Of a stretch of DNA of 36,448 bases, positions 29,257 through 36,448 are shown piece after piece; the first letter of the stretch is position 1; the number at the start of each line of letters is the position of its first letter. The notes under the pieces are model-generated. The model ran no database searches and was not told the origin of the DNA. It saw only the letters and a program-made list of their open reading frames with translations. The DNA is from Crocinitomicaceae bacterium (GTDB lineage Bacteria; Bacteroidota; Bacteroidia; Flavobacteriales_D; Crocinitomicaceae), in assembly GCA_014762645.1 (NCBI GenBank), contig JABURP010000049.1, positions 1-36,448 of the forward strand. The letters run 5' to 3'. The translations under genes were made by a program, and so were the position numbers.

Positions 29257-30312
29257 ATGAAAAAACAACTCCTCTTACTATGTTCCATATTTGGGATATT
29301 AGTGATCACATCTTGTAAGCAAAAAGGTTGTACAGATCCTTTGGCCGAAAATTATTCTTCAGAAGCAGAAAAAGATGACGGCAGCTGTACCTTTTTACAT
29401 GATAATTATTCCGGAACAGGTTCTATTACCCAAGGTCCTGCAACGACCACCATTAATAACTTATTTTCACAAGGAACCAGAGTTGCCGGTGTCGGCACCA
29501 TTACATCTTCAGACGGGTTATCCTGGACAGTTCCGGCTGAAAATAGTTTCCAAGACAACTCATTTCCATGGGCAAGTGATATGCACAACATATATGTAGC
29601 TGGACATGATTATGCTGACGTAGCATCTGCTGAAGCCGGCTTGAACTCGGCAGATATTGTTGAAATAGACGCCGGGGGTGAATTGATTACTGCCTATATC
29701 TGGTCCGATAATTATTTTGAAATGTACGTTAATGGTATACCTGTAGGAAAAGACCCGGTTCCTTTTACGGATTTCAATTCTTGTATCGTTCAGTTCCGAG
29801 CTAATCCCCCATTTGATGTAGCCATGATGTTGGTGGATTGGGAGGAAAATTTAGGTCAGGGTTCTGAATCTCACAGTGGCTTCTCTCACCACGCGGGTGA
29901 TGGAGGAATGGTGGCCGTATTTAAAAACTCAATGGGAACCGTAATAGGAGTTACCGATAATTCCTGGAAAGCCCAAACGTATTATACCGCACCTGTAACC
30001 GACTTATCCTGTCTTTCAGAAAGTGGTTCATTGCGCTTATCTGACAATTGCTCAACAGCAGATTCTAACGACGGAAGTTCACATTATGGCGTACACTGGA
30101 GCATACCACAAAACTGGCAAAATGAGGGTTATGACGACAGCTCATGGCCATCAGCCACAACCTATTCCAACACAGAAATTGGTGTATCGAACAAACCATC
30201 TTATACAAATTTCACTGATGTGTTTGACGACGCCGGAAATGATGCCCAGTTCATCTGGTCTACCAACGTAGTTTTAGATAACCTTGTATTAGTAAGAAAA
30301 ACAATTCAATAA
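29257..30312 (+). CDS. Cysteine-tagged lipoprotein, unknown function (first gene of operon)
   Basis: 351 aa. Lipoprotein signal MKKQLLLLCSIFGILVITSC (lipobox ITSC), immediately followed by the tag KQKGC-x18-C (GCTDPLAENYSSEAEKDDGSC). The rest is a beta-rich exported protein. The segments WSDNYFEMYVNGIPVGKDP, ANPPFDVAMMLVDWEE and DDSSWPSATTYSN resemble galactose-binding-like (jelly-roll) domains such as those in sugar-binding beta-sandwich proteins. I cannot name the family. The gap to the next gene is five bases, so the three genes 29257-32420 form one operon. All of its products carry the tag. Confidence 0.72.
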   Translation: MKKQLLLLCSIFGILVITSCKQKGCTDPLAENYSSEAEKDDGSCTFLHDNYSGTGSITQGPATTTINNLFSQGTRVAGVGTITSSDGLSWTVPAENSFQDNSFPWASDMHNIYVAGHDYADVASAEAGLNSADIVEIDAGGELITAYIWSDNYFEMYVNGIPVGKDPVPFTDFNSCIVQFRANPPFDVAMMLVDWEENLGQGSESHSGFSHHAGDGGMVAVFKNSMGTVIGVTDNSWKAQTYYTAPVTDLSCLSESGSLRLSDNCSTADSNDGSSHYGVHWSIPQNWQNEGYDDSSWPSATTYSNTEIGVSNKPSYTNFTDVFDDAGNDAQFIWSTNVVLDNLVLVRKTIQ

Positions 30313-30317
30313 TAAAT

Positions 30318-30944
30318 ATGAAAAAACTAACTCAAATAAGTGTTCTGGCATTTGCCGTGCTAGCACTTGCGTCTTGTAAGAAAAAAGGGTGTAATGATGC
30401 AAATGCGTCCAACTATTCTGCGGAAGCCGAAAAAGATGATGGAAGTTGTGTATATGACTTTGTCATTACAAGTGAGGCTGTTGATGAAAATGGTGAACTG
30501 TTGGCTTCGTATAAATGCGAACAAGCCGTAAATGGTGTTGAAAATTCAATCCCTCTGTCATGGAAAAATGTTCCTGATGGAACTGGATCACTCGCTATTA
30601 TAATGCAGCATTTTCCCAATCCATCTGATCCTGTAAATGCAAATCATTATTTACTACTTTGGGATATTGCACCTACTGTCACAGAGATTCCTTATGGCAC
30701 AGCTGATGACGGCCCCTGGTATATGGGGTCCAACAAAGATGGCACTTACATTTCGTATACATCTCCCTGTTCACCAACATCAGGAACACATGCCTATGAG
30801 ATTGTGATTTATGCACTTTCTGAAACGCCTTCTTCACTACCTACTCAAAGTTCATTGAGCGTTGACCGAACAACATTGCTTGATGCAATTGGTACAGTTA
30901 CGGTAATTGATCAGGCGATACTCGAATTTAATGATGTAAACTAA
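30318..30944 (+). CDS. Cysteine-tagged lipoprotein with PEBP/YbhB-like domain
   Basis: 208 aa. Lipoprotein signal MKKLTQISVLAFAVLALASC (lipobox LASC), followed by tag KKKGC-x18-C (GCNDANASNYSAEAEKDDGSC). The following ~160 residues are a phosphatidylethanolamine-binding protein (PEBP, YbhB/YbcL/RKIP-like) domain: FVITSEAVDENGEL, SIPLSWKNVPDGTGSLAIIM, NHYLLLWDIAP, SYTSPCSPTSGTHAYEIVIY and ALSE. The core PEBP order is kept. A lipid-anchored, exported PEBP protein is unusual, though YbhB-like proteins are often found beside YHYH-domain proteins. Its ligand is unknown. It is six bases upstream of the YHYH gene. Confidence 0.85.
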   Translation: MKKLTQISVLAFAVLALASCKKKGCNDANASNYSAEAEKDDGSCVYDFVITSEAVDENGELLASYKCEQAVNGVENSIPLSWKNVPDGTGSLAIIMQHFPNPSDPVNANHYLLLWDIAPTVTEIPYGTADDGPWYMGSNKDGTYISYTSPCSPTSGTHAYEIVIYALSETPSSLPTQSSLSVDRTTLLDAIGTVTVIDQAILEFNDVN

Positions 30945-30950
30945 AAAAAA

Positions 30951-32420
30951 ATGAAAATCAAATTACTACTTACACTACTGTTAGCCTATTCGATTTCTTT
31001 TGGACACGGAAAAGGACATCATCATAAAGCCGACTTAAAAACCTGGCATTTTGAAGACGGAACGACAATCGAAGGGGCCTATAGCCTTTCAAAAGAGGGC
31101 AAAGTATATATAGAAACCTCCAATCATGCCGTCGTAGCTTATTCAATTGAAACGTTAACCGACGCAGATGAGTCTTTTGTTCAAACAAAAATTGATGAAG
31201 TAGAGCAATTAAATAACGACACCGGATTACTCACCATTGAAAAGCACGAACATGTCACAACTAAGTCGGACAATAATTCTGCTGGCTTCCCGGTATGGGC
31301 GTACATTTTAATGGGATTGATCGTTGCATTACAAGTAACCATCTTACTCAAAAGAACGAAGAAAAGAACAGTATCAATTGGACTTTTTATAGTTGGTCTC
31401 ATTGGTCTGGGGTCAATTGTGGCGGCCTGTAACAGAAAAGGATGTATGGACCCATTAGCTGAGAATTACAATGAAAAAGCTAAAAAAGATGATGGTTCAT
31501 GTACCTATACTTTCACCTATTCTGCTTCGCCAAATGCCAATAACATCTCAGATATGGAAGCGGCTTTTGCTCCTTATGCACCACACGTTTCATATTCAAA
31601 TGATGGAACTACCTTTTTCGTTGAAGCAGACGCCATTGCGAATCATGACATGATGAAAGGAATTACGGCATGGATTGACCAGTTTCCTATTTACCAAAAA
31701 ATGACAGGTTCTAACTCCTGGCAAATTCCTATCCAACCTGAATATTCAGACGCCGGTTATACGATTCAGGAACATTTTAGAAAATATGCGATTGGTGTAG
31801 CTGCTAATGGTATTGCCATTTTCAATCCATACAATGCAACTGGAGAAATATCTGCAGACATTGGTGAATTAGATGAGTATGGCGGACACGCAGGAACTGG
31901 AGATGATTATCACTATCATTTACCACCAACCCATTTAGATGCAGGATCATCTCCAACAATTGTGGCATATGCCCTGGATGGATTCCCGGTTTATGGTGCT
32001 TTAGAGCCAGATGGATCGGCTATGCAAGATTTGGACCCTGTTTACCACGGCCACGAAATAAATGGTAGTTTCCATTATCATGCTACGTCATCCTATCCAT
32101 ATATGGTGAATACATTTAGAGGATTTGTTGGGGTTCAAGATTTAAACCAGGCACCTTATGACCAGATAGTTCCACAACCGTCTACGCAAAATTTCAGGGG
32201 AAATCCTTATGGTTTATCCGGAGGAGCTTCGAGTACCTTAATTGATTCTTGCGTAGCAAATGGCAGCGGTAATGGATACACGCTTTATTATACATTGAAT
32301 GGCACGGACAAGAAGAAAGTAGAATATTACTGGGTGGCTGGTCCAACGGATACCATCACGCTTAATTTCTATCACGATACCGGGTCCAATTTGGATCAAA
32401 CACAGGTTTGGACGAGGTAA
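30951..32420 (+). CDS. YHYH-domain protein with an N-terminal membrane module and internal lipobox-like cysteine tag
   Basis: 489 aa. Residues 1-18 are a signal peptide followed by a His-rich run (GHGKGHHHKAD). An exported segment (about 25-110) follows, then two transmembrane helices (about 116-135 WAYILMGLIVALQVTILL and 143-158 VSIGLFIVGLIGLGSIVA). The second ends in AAC at C160 and runs straight into the tag NRKGC-x18-C (GCMDPLAENYNEKAKKDDGSC) that in the sister genes follows a lipobox. Residues about 185-489 are a YHYH-type domain: DDYHYHLPPTH (YHYH at 320-323), FHYHATSS (374-377), YALDGFPVYGALEPDGS. YHYH proteins occur beside YbhB/PEBP genes, as here. The protein reads as a membrane module fused in frame to a lipoprotein. 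Metal binding by the His motifs is inferred. Confidence 0.85.
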   Translation: MKIKLLLTLLLAYSISFGHGKGHHHKADLKTWHFEDGTTIEGAYSLSKEGKVYIETSNHAVVAYSIETLTDADESFVQTKIDEVEQLNNDTGLLTIEKHEHVTTKSDNNSAGFPVWAYILMGLIVALQVTILLKRTKKRTVSIGLFIVGLIGLGSIVAACNRKGCMDPLAENYNEKAKKDDGSCTYTFTYSASPNANNISDMEAAFAPYAPHVSYSNDGTTFFVEADAIANHDMMKGITAWIDQFPIYQKMTGSNSWQIPIQPEYSDAGYTIQEHFRKYAIGVAANGIAIFNPYNATGEISADIGELDEYGGHAGTGDDYHYHLPPTHLDAGSSPTIVAYALDGFPVYGALEPDGSAMQDLDPVYHGHEINGSFHYHATSSYPYMVNTFRGFVGVQDLNQAPYDQIVPQPSTQNFRGNPYGLSGGASSTLIDSCVANGSGNGYTLYYTLNGTDKKKVEYYWVAGPTDTITLNFYHDTGSNLDQTQVWTR

Positions 32421-34210: not shown

Positions 34211-34241
34211 TTGTTCGAATTTTTTTTCACGTCTAGATTTG
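34211..34241 (+). promoter_or_regulatory. Bacteroidota-type promoter for the HmuY-like operon
   Basis: TTG (34211-34213), 20-base spacer, TAGATTTG (34234-34241): an exact match. Predicted transcription start near 34247, about 32 bases before the ATG at 34279. I did not find a convincing Fur box, although iron control would be expected. Confidence 0.6.
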
Positions 34242-34278: not shown

Positions 34279-35496
34279 ATGAATACACTATTACCTGGGT
34301 TGTGCTTACTGATTTCATGTATCAGTTATTCACAAATTGAAGACTCAGTAGTCCTGGGAGCGGGCTATACCAATGAATCCTATTACAGTTTAGAAAATGG
34401 AGAAATAGCCAATGTAGATAATAACAATTGGGATCTGGGGTTCGATTTGAGCGGATTTGGTGCAACCATCAAACTAAACCGGAGACAAAGTATTATGTGG
34501 GTATACCCTGGCATAACCTCCGATTGGGCAACACTGGACACAACAGGAATGAATTCCTGGGCAACGTACACCGACACCTACAATTCCTGGGATGAAGGTG
34601 CTTTTAATAATTGTGCCGATACTACAGATGCTTCGGATGTAGGGTGGGGTTTGTATAACTCCGTTACCCACATTATTGAAGGTGAGCGCATATTTGTGAT
34701 GGAATTAAGTAATGGCGATTACAAGAAAATCTATTTTGAACAACTAGCAGCCGGTACTTACTCCTTTAAATACGCCAACTTAGATAATACCGGAGAAGTC
34801 AATGAAACCGTCGTTAAGTCTAATTATCCAGATAAAAATTTCGTTTATTACTCTGTTTTAACTGAGTCTATAGTTGATAGAGAGCCCGTTTCCGCAGTTT
34901 GGGACATGGTCTTTACAAATGTTGTGTTAGAATTAGCTCCGTATTATTTTGGCGGGGTTACCAACGTATTACATAACAAAGGTATAAGCGTTTCAGAAAT
35001 TAGTGGTGTCCCTACTACTAGTGCAACTTATGGCGCTTTTGAAGACCCAATAAACACCATAGGTTCAGATTGGAAGACATTTGATATGGGGCTTATGCAA
35101 TATCAAATAGAAGACTCACTCACCTACTTTGTTCAAACTGCTTCAGGAGATGTGTGGAAACTCTTTTTTACAGGGTTCAACGGTTCAACTGATGGCAAAA
35201 TCTACTTCACCAAAGAAAAAGTGGCCTTCGCTAACGTAGCACAAGAAAACCCAATTGATATGAAACTATACCCAAACCCGGCTAGTCATCTGTGCACTAT
35301 ACAAACAAAGGGAGATCCCATTACATCCATTAAACTGTTCAACATGAACGGCCAATTGGTGTATTCTCAAACTTACAATGCTGAGATGGGGAATATTGAA
35401 ATCCCTACATCCTCCTTTCAGGAAGGGATTTACTTATTAAATGTAGTGAACACCCAAAATGAATTAAGCACCTATAAATTAATTGTAAAACATTAA
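34279..35496 (+). CDS. HmuY-like haem-binding protein with T9SS type A CTD
   Basis: 405 aa. Exported N-terminus MNTLLPGLCLLISCISYSQ; signal peptidase I cleavage after SYS is likely, though a lipobox-like LISC is also present. The central region (about 20-320) has the HmuY layout: NWDLGFDLSG with the following IKLNRRQSIMW, later VWDMVFTNVVLEL, and near the end YFVQTASGDVWKLFFTGFNG then GKIYFTKEKVA. HmuY of Porphyromonas binds haem at the cell surface. The last ~80 residues are a T9SS CTD (KLYPNPASHL, FNMNGQLVYS, EGIYLLNVV, YKLIVKH), which a Porphyromonas HmuY lacks. It starts the operon with the CbiX-like gene (two-base gap). Haem binding is inferred from the family. Confidence 0.75.
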   Translation: MNTLLPGLCLLISCISYSQIEDSVVLGAGYTNESYYSLENGEIANVDNNNWDLGFDLSGFGATIKLNRRQSIMWVYPGITSDWATLDTTGMNSWATYTDTYNSWDEGAFNNCADTTDASDVGWGLYNSVTHIIEGERIFVMELSNGDYKKIYFEQLAAGTYSFKYANLDNTGEVNETVVKSNYPDKNFVYYSVLTESIVDREPVSAVWDMVFTNVVLELAPYYFGGVTNVLHNKGISVSEISGVPTTSATYGAFEDPINTIGSDWKTFDMGLMQYQIEDSLTYFVQTASGDVWKLFFTGFNGSTDGKIYFTKEKVAFANVAQENPIDMKLYPNPASHLCTIQTKGDPITSIKLFNMNGQLVYSQTYNAEMGNIEIPTSSFQEGIYLLNVVNTQNELSTYKLIVKH

Positions 35497-35498
35497 AC

Positions 35499-36431
35499 AT
35501 GAAAAAAGTAAGATCAATCAGCTTATGTTGCCTTTTCGCATTGCTGCTAATAGGATGTAAGTCTGAAGATTCCATTGATGTAACAGAACCATCCGAATCA
35601 AATGAAAAAGTGGGCGTACTGCTGGTCAATCACGGTTCCCATTCTCCAACCTGGCGGCAAATGCTGCTTGATGTTGAAGATAATGTCCGAGAAGAAATAC
35701 TCGCAAATCCAAGAATTACAGAACTTAAAACTGCTTTCATGGAATATAATGAACCATCTATTGCTACGCAAATGAAGTGGTTTGATGAAAATGGATTTAC
35801 AGATGTGATCATTGTTCCCATATTTCTAACGGTGAGTTCACATTATTCGCACGACATTCCTGTAATCGTGGGCTTAAGTTCAGACCCGAAAATTACAGAA
35901 TCATTGGCTGAAGAAGAGATTGAAGTTTACAAATCAAAAGCCAGGGCAACCATTACGCCGCCATTAGATTATACCACCTTGCTCAAGAAAAATGTTGCGC
36001 GCCGTGTAGAGGCTTTAAGTGACGATTCCGACAATGAAGCCGTGTTACTCGTTGCTTATGGAGATGAGCAATATAACCAGCAATGGGAAGAGATGGTGGA
36101 AGAAATTGGCCAATACCTCAAGATAAAAACAGGTCATGAAATGATCGCTTATGCCTGGTGTGGTCACATTGTCGAATACTCTTCTGATCCCACCACAGAG
36201 GGGATAGAAAAATTGTTTGAATTTGAAGACAACGTAATTGTAATCCCTGTTTTGGTTGCCAACGACGAACATTTTCAGGGAGAAATCATTCAGGACGGAG
36301 TGAACGCCGCCTCCAATACGTCACATGTAAAGTATATAAAGGACGCCATATTACCGCATAAAAAATTGGAACAGCGGGTGGTGAAAATTTTGTTTGAAAA
36401 GCTGGAAACAATACGAGTGGCAGATGTATGA
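35499..36431 (+). CDS. CbiX/sirohydrochlorin-chelatase-like protein, exported as a lipoprotein
   Basis: 310 aa. Lipoprotein signal MKKVRSISLCCLFALLLIGC (lipobox LIGC, C20) places it outside the cytoplasm, unlike the cytosolic class II chelatases CbiX/SirB it resembles. The first half (about 36-130) carries both metal/tetrapyrrole His motifs: VLLVNHGSHSP (H45) and FLTVSSHYSHDIP (H115). A second half (about 180-300) has the same fold order but the first motif is VLLVAYGDEQY (Tyr for His) and the second VANDEHFQGEII (H258). The two-domain, one-active-half form resembles long CbiX proteins. With a HmuY-like neighbour, removal or insertion of iron from haem in the periplasm is the likely task. The stop overlaps the next gene's ATG. 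Confidence 0.82.
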   Translation: MKKVRSISLCCLFALLLIGCKSEDSIDVTEPSESNEKVGVLLVNHGSHSPTWRQMLLDVEDNVREEILANPRITELKTAFMEYNEPSIATQMKWFDENGFTDVIIVPIFLTVSSHYSHDIPVIVGLSSDPKITESLAEEEIEVYKSKARATITPPLDYTTLLKKNVARRVEALSDDSDNEAVLLVAYGDEQYNQQWEEMVEEIGQYLKIKTGHEMIAYAWCGHIVEYSSDPTTEGIEKLFEFEDNVIVIPVLVANDEHFQGEIIQDGVNAASNTSHVKYIKDAILPHKKLEQRVVKILFEKLETIRVADV

Positions 36432-36448
36432 AGGTAGGGAATTTTCAC
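36428..36448 (+). CDS. Start of the third gene of the haem-type operon (cut by window edge)
   Basis: ATG at 36428 overlaps the stop of the CbiX-like gene by four bases (ATGA), a classic sign of translational coupling. The seven visible codons read MKVGNFH. Too short to identify; related clusters suggest a TonB-dependent receptor or transporter, but the sequence does not show it. Confidence 0.4.

Follow-up and report, generated by a model that had tools for sequence, protein, structure and literature searches.

A candidate reductive haem-iron operon in a Crocinitomicaceae bacterium pairs an exported CbiX-type chelatase with a membrane electron-transfer protein

Haem-iron acquisition by the hmuYRSTUV system of Porphyromonas and Bacteroides combines a HmuY-type catcher and a TonB-dependent receptor with the CobN-type protein HmuS, which removes iron outside the cytoplasm and preserves the ring. 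In vitro, HmuS depends on NADH, and it acts on haem in the ferrous state (PMC12583661). Here we describe an operon that starts at the right-hand end of a 36,448-nucleotide stretch of DNA (the window) from a Crocinitomicaceae bacterium (GenBank assembly GCA_014762645.1, contig JABURP010000049.1). This operon also holds a HmuY-type catcher and a TonB-dependent receptor, but in place of HmuS it encodes a small class II chelatase lipoprotein together with its own membrane electron donor, and one of its HmuY proteins is exported by the type IX secretion system (T9SS). We propose for it the same kind of ring-preserving, extracytoplasmic iron removal.

That an exported chelatase may serve haem-iron acquisition has been suggested before. 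For IhtB of P. gingivalis, an exported chelatase of the CbiK type, extraction of haem iron has been proposed (PMC10913741; PMC6460266). It resembles the enzyme described here in being a class II chelatase lipoprotein that goes with a TonB receptor. We take IhtB and FetB to be one protein; the FetB structure 9b86 matches the chelatase here with a Z score of 15.0, which is no closer than the match to ferrochelatases, and the two differ in being CbiK type and CbiX type. The Iht system as described includes an ATP-binding cassette (ABC) importer, IhtC-E, and the available text of PMC10913741 names neither a redox partner nor a HmuY. In Flavobacterium psychrophilum, the HmuY-family haem-binding protein HfpY is co-transcribed with the TonB receptor HfpR and a middle gene of the DoxX type, and that operon as described has no chelatase (PMC9331221). 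A weak DoxX-like match also lies just before the receptor in one of the loci we compared (L148). The cytosolic chelatases SirB, CbiX, and CfbA share the fold and the histidine pair of our enzyme, which unlike them is exported and often stands beside HmuY and TonB receptor genes. A WCGH motif in its second half is invariant in 28 sequences of its clade.

The partner proteins resemble known flavinylated NosR-like and PepSY-like systems for extracytosolic electron transfer, with FMN_bind, a flavinylation motif, and Fer4_5 in the one type and PepSY_TM_like_2 in the other. The main texts of two flavinylation surveys (PMC8238504, PMC11334425) contain neither “chelatase” nor “CbiX.” Among the matches listed for the open-licence literature, we found no description of a CbiX-type clade with an electron donor, though one may exist elsewhere, and CbiX together with PepSY gave no match there. 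In those open-licence papers mentioning both HmuY and CbiX that were checked, the text examined names CbiX only incidentally or among the references. The use of an exported chelatase for haem iron is an idea already proposed for IhtB/FetB; what is new is the pairing with an electron donor and the exchange of the pair as a cassette. An initial annotation of the window, made from its letters alone, had suggested a chemistry different from that of HmuS. The absence of CobN from the genome agrees with this, and the novelty of the idea is reduced by IhtB. The annotation was largely right in outline and missed both that precedent and the electron-transfer partner, the gene that accompanies the chelatase most consistently.

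The window is a complete contig (C67) of a 4.23-Mb genome that is 98.99% complete. Three co-oriented genes stand at its end, with coordinates, strands, and spacings as first annotated: 2 bases separate the HmuY-T9SS gene from the chelatase gene, and the ATG of the third gene, at 36428, overlaps the chelatase TGA by 4 bases. The third gene is cut off by the contig end, also as annotated, and extension to the right led to contig C87 of the same genome, where the remaining genes are found (locus L003; loci are numbered with our own L handles). The operon is as follows.

Window 34279..35496, + strand: HmuY-family protein, 405 aa, presumed to catch haem at the surface or as a secreted protein; signal of Sec type (by eye), HmuY domains probably in tandem, type A sorting domain for T9SS
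Window 35499..36431, + strand: exported lipoprotein, 310 aa; class II chelatase of the CbiX/SirB type, proposed to de-chelate haem
Window 36428..36448, + strand: third gene, first 7 codons (MKVGNFH); start of a NosR-like flavin mononucleotide (FMN)-binding/4Fe-4S membrane protein
Contig C87, L003:13158-14534, - strand: full NosR-like copy, 458 aa, start VKKGLIH
Contig C87, L003:12835-13161, - strand: small CxxC-containing DUF6686 protein
Contig C87, L003:10598-12838, - strand: TonB-dependent receptor
Contig C87, L003:9649-10611, - strand: second HmuY protein, a lipoprotein (PF14064, 65.8 bits)

Read backwards, C87 gives the order NosR-like protein, DUF6686, TonB-dependent receptor, HmuY lipoprotein. 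The last 47 residues of the chelatase match the extreme end of C87 at 81%, the two contig ends share 54 identical bp before diverging, and MKVGNFH lines up with VKKGLIH. The join is supported by the same gene order in the independent genomes of L056 and L058 (and of L063, without DUF6686). A locus of the same family (L105, genome G020) also has this order, with a PepSY-type protein in the redox position. In its last ~110 bp, the window encodes chelatase residues H287 and R293; these positions are D and W in the C87 copy and in the family. Since these residues are less family-like than those of C87, the end of the window may be the sequence of another strain or a strain variant, or else a mis-assembly or error.

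The strongest result of our analysis is that the exported chelatase tracks an electron donor. A chelatase-alignment scan of species genomes returned 201 relatives, and our counts cover the best 80, scored with hidden Markov models built from the fetched loci themselves. Directly downstream of the chelatase lies a NosR-like gene in 34/80 loci and an unrelated PepSY-type membrane protein gene (PF16357) in 41/80; no locus has both, and five have neither. The gap between the two genes, measured between model matches, is ≤60 bp in 67 of the 75 pairs. Chance neighbourhood was rejected on the grounds that the partner is adjacent in 75/80 loci. Of these five, L087 has its contig end 211 bases after the chelatase, and L079 carries a NosR-like protein in frame with the receptor (see below). 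In L125, L128, and L133, the chelatase has no signal peptide, begins directly at the chelatase domain, and has no adjacent partner. In a tree of 81 chelatases (with L079 scored as NosR by eye), there are two fully supported clades, one for each type of partner, and the three signal-less sequences form a single twig within the PepSY clade. Partner and export were therefore lost together, once. The first copy in L081 lacks a signal in its own frame and has a lipobox signal just upstream in another, so it is probably frameshifted. Ten weak relatives (L045-L054) were excluded from all counts as a different family: their starts are mostly Sec type by eye, they have no WCGH, and no NosR or PepSY match was seen in the fetched stretches. 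A phmmer search with one of these proteins gave no match in the PDB.

Some loci of the set show unusual arrangements. In an uncultured Persicobacter (L079:8929-12600), a NosR-like protein and a TonB-dependent receptor share one uninterrupted 1223-aa frame, which holds an apparent receptor signal peptide internally and reflects either a gene fusion or the loss of a stop codon. A single PepSY-type gene stands between genes for two different CbiX lipoproteins in L108:310-2980 (Pelodictyon) and in two loci of one family (L043:9063-11593 and L044:2609-5234). At L037:9045-9126, an Rfam Flavo-1 RNA (61 bits) separates the gene for the CbiX lipoprotein from that for the NosR-like protein. Two Methylococcales sponge symbionts (L071 and L075) have the CbiX-NosR pair with a TonB receptor ~0.8 kb upstream and no HmuY match.

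Both kinds of partner carry the features of electron-transfer proteins. The NosR-like protein on C87 matches PF04205 (FMN_bind, 40 bits) and PF12801 (Fer4_5, 33 bits), so that a covalent-FMN-type domain with the motif DAISGAT is joined to a 4Fe-4S membrane domain. It has two CxxxCP iron-sulfur-type motifs, which are kept in full-length relatives. The D..(S/T)GAT flavinylation-type motif is found in 30 of the 31 full-length NosR-like proteins, with D, G, A, and T invariant in 31/31, and the genome has an ApbE gene. In the PepSY-type proteins, H17, H40, and H130 are kept in 41/41. Proteins of this type are described as haem-binding transmembrane electron-transfer proteins (PMC11334425) and have been linked to extracytosolic iron reduction (PMC8238504). 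This last property would also fit a redox protein that reduces iron only after its release, for Fe(II) uptake, with the chelatase acting spontaneously or on ferric haem. We regard that explanation as very unlikely, since the partner follows the chelatase (75/80 adjacent) more closely than do the receptor (57/80) or HmuY (43/80) within about 8 kb.

The chelatase itself was assigned both by sequence and by fold. It matches CbiX PF01903 at 58 bits (cut-off 22). It falls below the cut-offs of the sirohydrochlorin nickelochelatase models NF002090 and NF033198 of NCBIfam (78-81 bits against 120) and of the CbiK family PF06180 (13.5 bits against 26.2). The AlphaFold model (mean predicted local distance difference test [pLDDT] score, 87.8) has the two-lobed chelatase fold, and the closest solved structure is SirB (Z 19.5, 240 residues, 3.6 A), followed by ferrochelatases, CbiK, the periplasmic D. 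vulgaris CbiK (2xvz/2xvx, Z 15.5), and FetB. The residues of interest are these.

35556..35558, + strand: lipobox cysteine C20 (LIGC), invariant in 14/14 relatives
35631..35633, + strand: predicted active-site histidine H45, aligned with CfbA H9
35841..35843, + strand: predicted active-site histidine H115, aligned with CfbA H75

H9 and H75 of CfbA are, we presume, its metal-binding pair. H45 and H115, the corresponding pair in the N-terminal lobe, are invariant in both of our alignments (14 and 28 sequences), and W220-C221-G222-H223 in the second lobe is invariant in the 28 aligned sequences of the clade. A cysteine precedes the HGS motif in 71/75 related open reading frames; in two Nitrospira rows (L118 and L121) it falls inside a Sec-type signal. 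Signal peptides and lipoboxes were assigned by visual inspection; an overly strict lipobox pattern scores 53/75. The gene 2 product is thus predicted to be exported and to work on the periplasmic side as a class II chelatase resembling SirB; the lipoprotein signal, the chelatase class, and the two histidines had all been named by the initial annotation and held up.

What such a protein does is less evident from its fold. Instead of mining iron, it could insert a metal into porphyrin that is imported or at the surface, or exchange one there, with Mn or Co and protoporphyrin as an example. It has the fold and active site of class II chelatases that insert metals, and P. gingivalis FetB is reported to make Mn-protoporphyrin IX (review PMC13402209). 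Metal insertion, however, should need no dedicated electron donor, yet one is adjacent in 75/80 loci and in L079 as well, and some relatives hold haem-type import genes and HemS in the slot of the chelatase; we judge this alternative unlikely. Alternatively, the protein could carry haem in the periplasm without chelatase turnover and deliver it to an acceptor, be it the membrane redox protein or some other. Its fold matches those of FetB and of the periplasmic D. vulgaris CbiK, which is said to bind haem, and a lipoprotein beside uptake genes would suit a carrier. Against this stand the strict conservation of the histidine pair and of W220-C221-G222-H223 in all 28 aligned sequences and the 18 operons of full gene order (below) that have no haem importer gene between the frame genes, which make a pure carrier quite improbable. 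A cluster of ABC ATPases is present in 11/80 loci.

The first gene of the operon encodes one of the two HmuY proteins found in the genome, both of which belong to this operon. Its product matches HmuY PF14064 with an E value of 2.7e-7 (31.3 bits; cut-off 27), and because the match falls in two stretches, the protein probably has tandem HmuY domains.

34366..34749, + strand: HmuY domain 1, residues 30-157 (Pfam match)
35266..35487, + strand: T9SS C-terminal sorting domain, residues 330-403 (Por_Secre_tail PF18962, E 7e-14; TIGR04183, E 1e-11)

The sorting domain is of type A, as in T9SS cargo. The initial annotation had described a HmuY-type protein with a T9SS end and had set a structural match to HmuY beforehand as a test. 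The model (pLDDT 80.5) gave such a match: it has the all-beta HmuY fold, and the eight top rows in VIA are HmuY or HmuY-like (PinO, BfrB, BfrC, and 4gbs, whose kinship to HmuY we partly presume), with Z scores of 11.2-13.4 over 127-161 residues. The aligned range, from residues 12-20 to 316-319, covers both halves, and T9SS C-terminal domains follow after the HmuY rows at a Z score of about 10. Foldseek ranked HmuY weakly (8b6a, E 5e-3; 6eu8, 9e-3; 3h8t, 1.3e-2). P. gingivalis HmuY uses two histidines as haem ligands; in our protein, H131 is invariant in 18/18 orthologues.

The two kinds of protein differ in their likely location. Lipoproteins bound for the cell surface carry an export signal, and in the HmuY lipoproteins of full operons C-x-K/R-x-E-L/I follows the lipobox in 13/16 lines, with CEKDEI in this genome. 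The residues after the chelatase lipobox, in contrast, show no surface-export signal common to the related open reading frames. Together with the Sec-exported Nitrospira forms, this points to HmuY at the cell surface and the chelatase on the periplasmic side.

A wider search for HmuY near lipoprotein CbiX, which the initial annotation had called for, found many such loci. HmuY is present in 43/80 (35 by models free of the T9SS tail, 7 by Pfam, and L065 by likeness to L062 and L066; 42 without L065), and these counts exclude matches due to T9SS tails alone (L111, L114, and L120, by Pfam). A TonB receptor is present in 57/80; 41 loci have both, and 59 have at least one. The full order HmuY-CbiX-redox-(DUF6686)-receptor-HmuY occurs in 18/80, of which 14 have a PepSY-type and 4 a NosR-like partner. 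DUF6686 recurs just before the receptor (L003:12835-13161, L056, L096, L116, L122, and L134).

The same HmuY-receptor frame exists with other genes in place of the chelatase. HmuY matches were found in 81/299 sampled genomes of the order, from which 16 frames were chosen by hand and not at random. In four of these (L144, L145, L151, and L157), a four-gene set lies between HmuY and the receptor; in L145, these are a periplasmic binding protein, a FecCD permease, an ABC ATPase, and a HemS/ChuS protein. The best NCBIfam model for this ATPase is a haem one at 255 bits, below its cut-off of 261, and HemS PF05171 scores 241 bits in L145 and 235 in L151. Another 3/16 frames have in this slot the family that is DUF6607 in L147, and the remaining frames are empty or have DUF6686. 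Pfam names for the slot come from L145 (four genes), L151 (HemS), L147 (DUF6607), and L148 (DoxX-like), and the rest were assigned by BLAST clustering. The DUF6607 family genes (L147:6558-7472, L148:4097-5017, and L150:4604-5527) lie between HmuY-T9SS and the TonB receptor and score 346 bits in L147, the only one scanned; DUF6607 is possibly another haem-handling protein. The chelatase-donor pair would then occupy the slot in which other lineages keep haem-type import and HemS. Receptor, second HmuY, and the import genes and HemS of orthologous frames lend support from context to the haem theme first suggested for the window.

Trees of receptor and chelatase place the window differently. In the receptor tree, it groups at 100/100 with L105, which has a PepSY partner, and with L153, which has no CbiX; in the CbiX tree, it belongs to the NosR clade at 100/100, apart from L105. 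Pairwise identities agree: to L105, the window is 53% identical in the receptor, 47% in HmuY-T9SS, and 50% in CbiX; to L056, the values are 45%, 40%, and 69%. Chelatase and donor thus appear to have moved as a two-gene cassette into an existing haem-receptor frame. Orthologues of the chelatase occur, for instance, in Maribacter polysiphoniae and Flammeovirga pacifica. Outside Bacteroidota, the cassette is found, partly without HmuY, in Chlorobia, Gammaproteobacteria (including Chromatiaceae), Nitrospira, and a planctomycete. Four Nitrospira loci (L115:174-1868, L118:3985-5754, L121:3872-5749, and L123:4057-5748) also encode a second exported protein, 563-625 aa long, whose gene immediately precedes that of the receptor in three cases. 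This protein has weak CbiX and ferrochelatase matches (Pfam, L118 only) and looks like a double-length exported chelatase.

This spread bears on the substrate. The chelatase could demetallate another metallo-tetrapyrrole, or swap its metal, with a corrinoid, a chlorophyll breakdown product, or a sirohaem-like compound as the substrate. CbiX relatives act on sirohydrochlorin, some members of the clade come from the phototrophic Chlorobia and Chromatiaceae, a cobalamin riboswitch lies nearby in L039, and BtuB and the colicin I receptor are among the top PDB matches of the receptor. However, the window and 30 of the 31 loci scanned lack a cobalamin riboswitch, which led us to reject a cobalamin system as first choice, and the neighbours are HmuY and, in the equivalent slot of related frames, HemS. 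We consider a substrate other than haem as unlikely as metal insertion.

The remainder of the genome was inspected for other haem routes. It has no match to PF02514 (CobN/HmuS), whereas the control matched in 5/14. An explanation of the HmuS type was rejected for this absence, with CobN seen in 4/299 sampled genomes of the order. CobN is uncommon throughout the order, so its absence from CbiX-bearing relatives was not used as support; it is present in 2/8 of their genomes, both of family f26, which includes the Chloroherpetonaceae locus. A genome search for haem-degrading enzymes, confined to haem oxygenases of PF01126, found none. Within the operon, the part of the genome inspected for them, there are no HmuT/U/V-like genes. 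A ferrochelatase gene (HemH) is present, so the organism presumably makes its own haem and seeks the iron.

Taken together, we favor, with moderate confidence, a role of the operon in haem-iron acquisition by reductive removal of iron from haem in the periplasm, in which the direction of the reaction and the substrate are deduced from context. The T9SS-secreted HmuY and the HmuY lipoprotein, placed by family and by the fold of the former, would capture haem at the surface, and the TonB-dependent receptor would move it to the periplasm, a substrate suggested by its neighbours. The NosR-like protein, with its periplasmic FMN-type domain and iron-sulfur-type motifs, would send electrons outwards and reduce ferric to ferrous haem; a PepSY-type membrane protein would take this part in the sister clade. 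The CbiX lipoprotein, given its fold, histidines, and export signal, could then run in reverse on the periplasmic side to yield Fe(II) and protoporphyrin. Fe(II) would enter by an ordinary ferrous transporter, and the porphyrin might be reused by the cell's own HemH. A built-in reductant makes chemical sense, since HmuS is NADH-dependent and acts on ferrous haem.

Several points weigh against this reading. Class II chelatases are known for metal insertion, and FetB is reported to make Mn-protoporphyrin, as noted above. TonB receptors are numerous in Bacteroidota, so a nearby one is weak evidence, and the best PDB sequence matches of ours are the colicin I receptor, a TonB-linked receptor, and BtuB, with haem receptors further down; these matches lie mainly in the plug region. 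The riboswitch in L039 precedes another receptor. Disruption of a CbiK-type gene in B. fragilis had no effect on haem-iron use (unpublished data quoted in PMC6460266). No HmuY was found in 37/80 loci, and 21/80, including the three signal-less ones, have neither HmuY nor a receptor in reach (~8 kb), and while some of these contigs are short, around half extend for 8 kb to either side. The chelatase has a sparse and scattered distribution, with 3/200 sampled genomes in the family, 6/299 in the order, and none in three congeners. Finally, the evidence for joining C67 to C87 consists of a 54-bp overlap and synteny.

For the clade as a whole, we see about even chances that these widespread exported CbiX-type proteins are reductive haem de-chelatases, locked to one dedicated membrane donor per clade and exchanged as a cassette between haem-receptor operons of Bacteroidota, as a second ring-preserving solution unrelated to HmuS. 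For bacteria that have neither HmuS nor haem oxygenase, the locus would name a small soluble-type enzyme, a likely reductant, and a receptor for iron release from haem, all in one operon. Many exported proteins of environmental Bacteroidota and Nitrospira that resemble sirohydrochlorin chelatases may then be haem enzymes. The signal-less relatives without a partner and the frames with HemS in the same slot provide natural controls.

Two further features of the window lie outside these genes. The initial annotation had placed an exact promoter before the operon.

34211..34241, + strand: promoter-like string of Bacteroidota type, TTG-N20-TAGATTTG; the first start codon follows after 37 bases

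The string, written to what we take to be the consensus, is present. The pattern (gap 17-23) is not enriched, with 5 matches on both strands of the window against 6.7 +/- 2.6 in 30 simulated sequences. As this count is not above expectation, the promoter was dropped as independent evidence; its position 37 bases before the start codon is the sole point that favors it. At 29257-32420 of the window, three neighbouring genes share by eye a common C-x-D-x-x-A-x-NY...KDDGSC motif, and among them are one YHYH domain and one PEBP domain.

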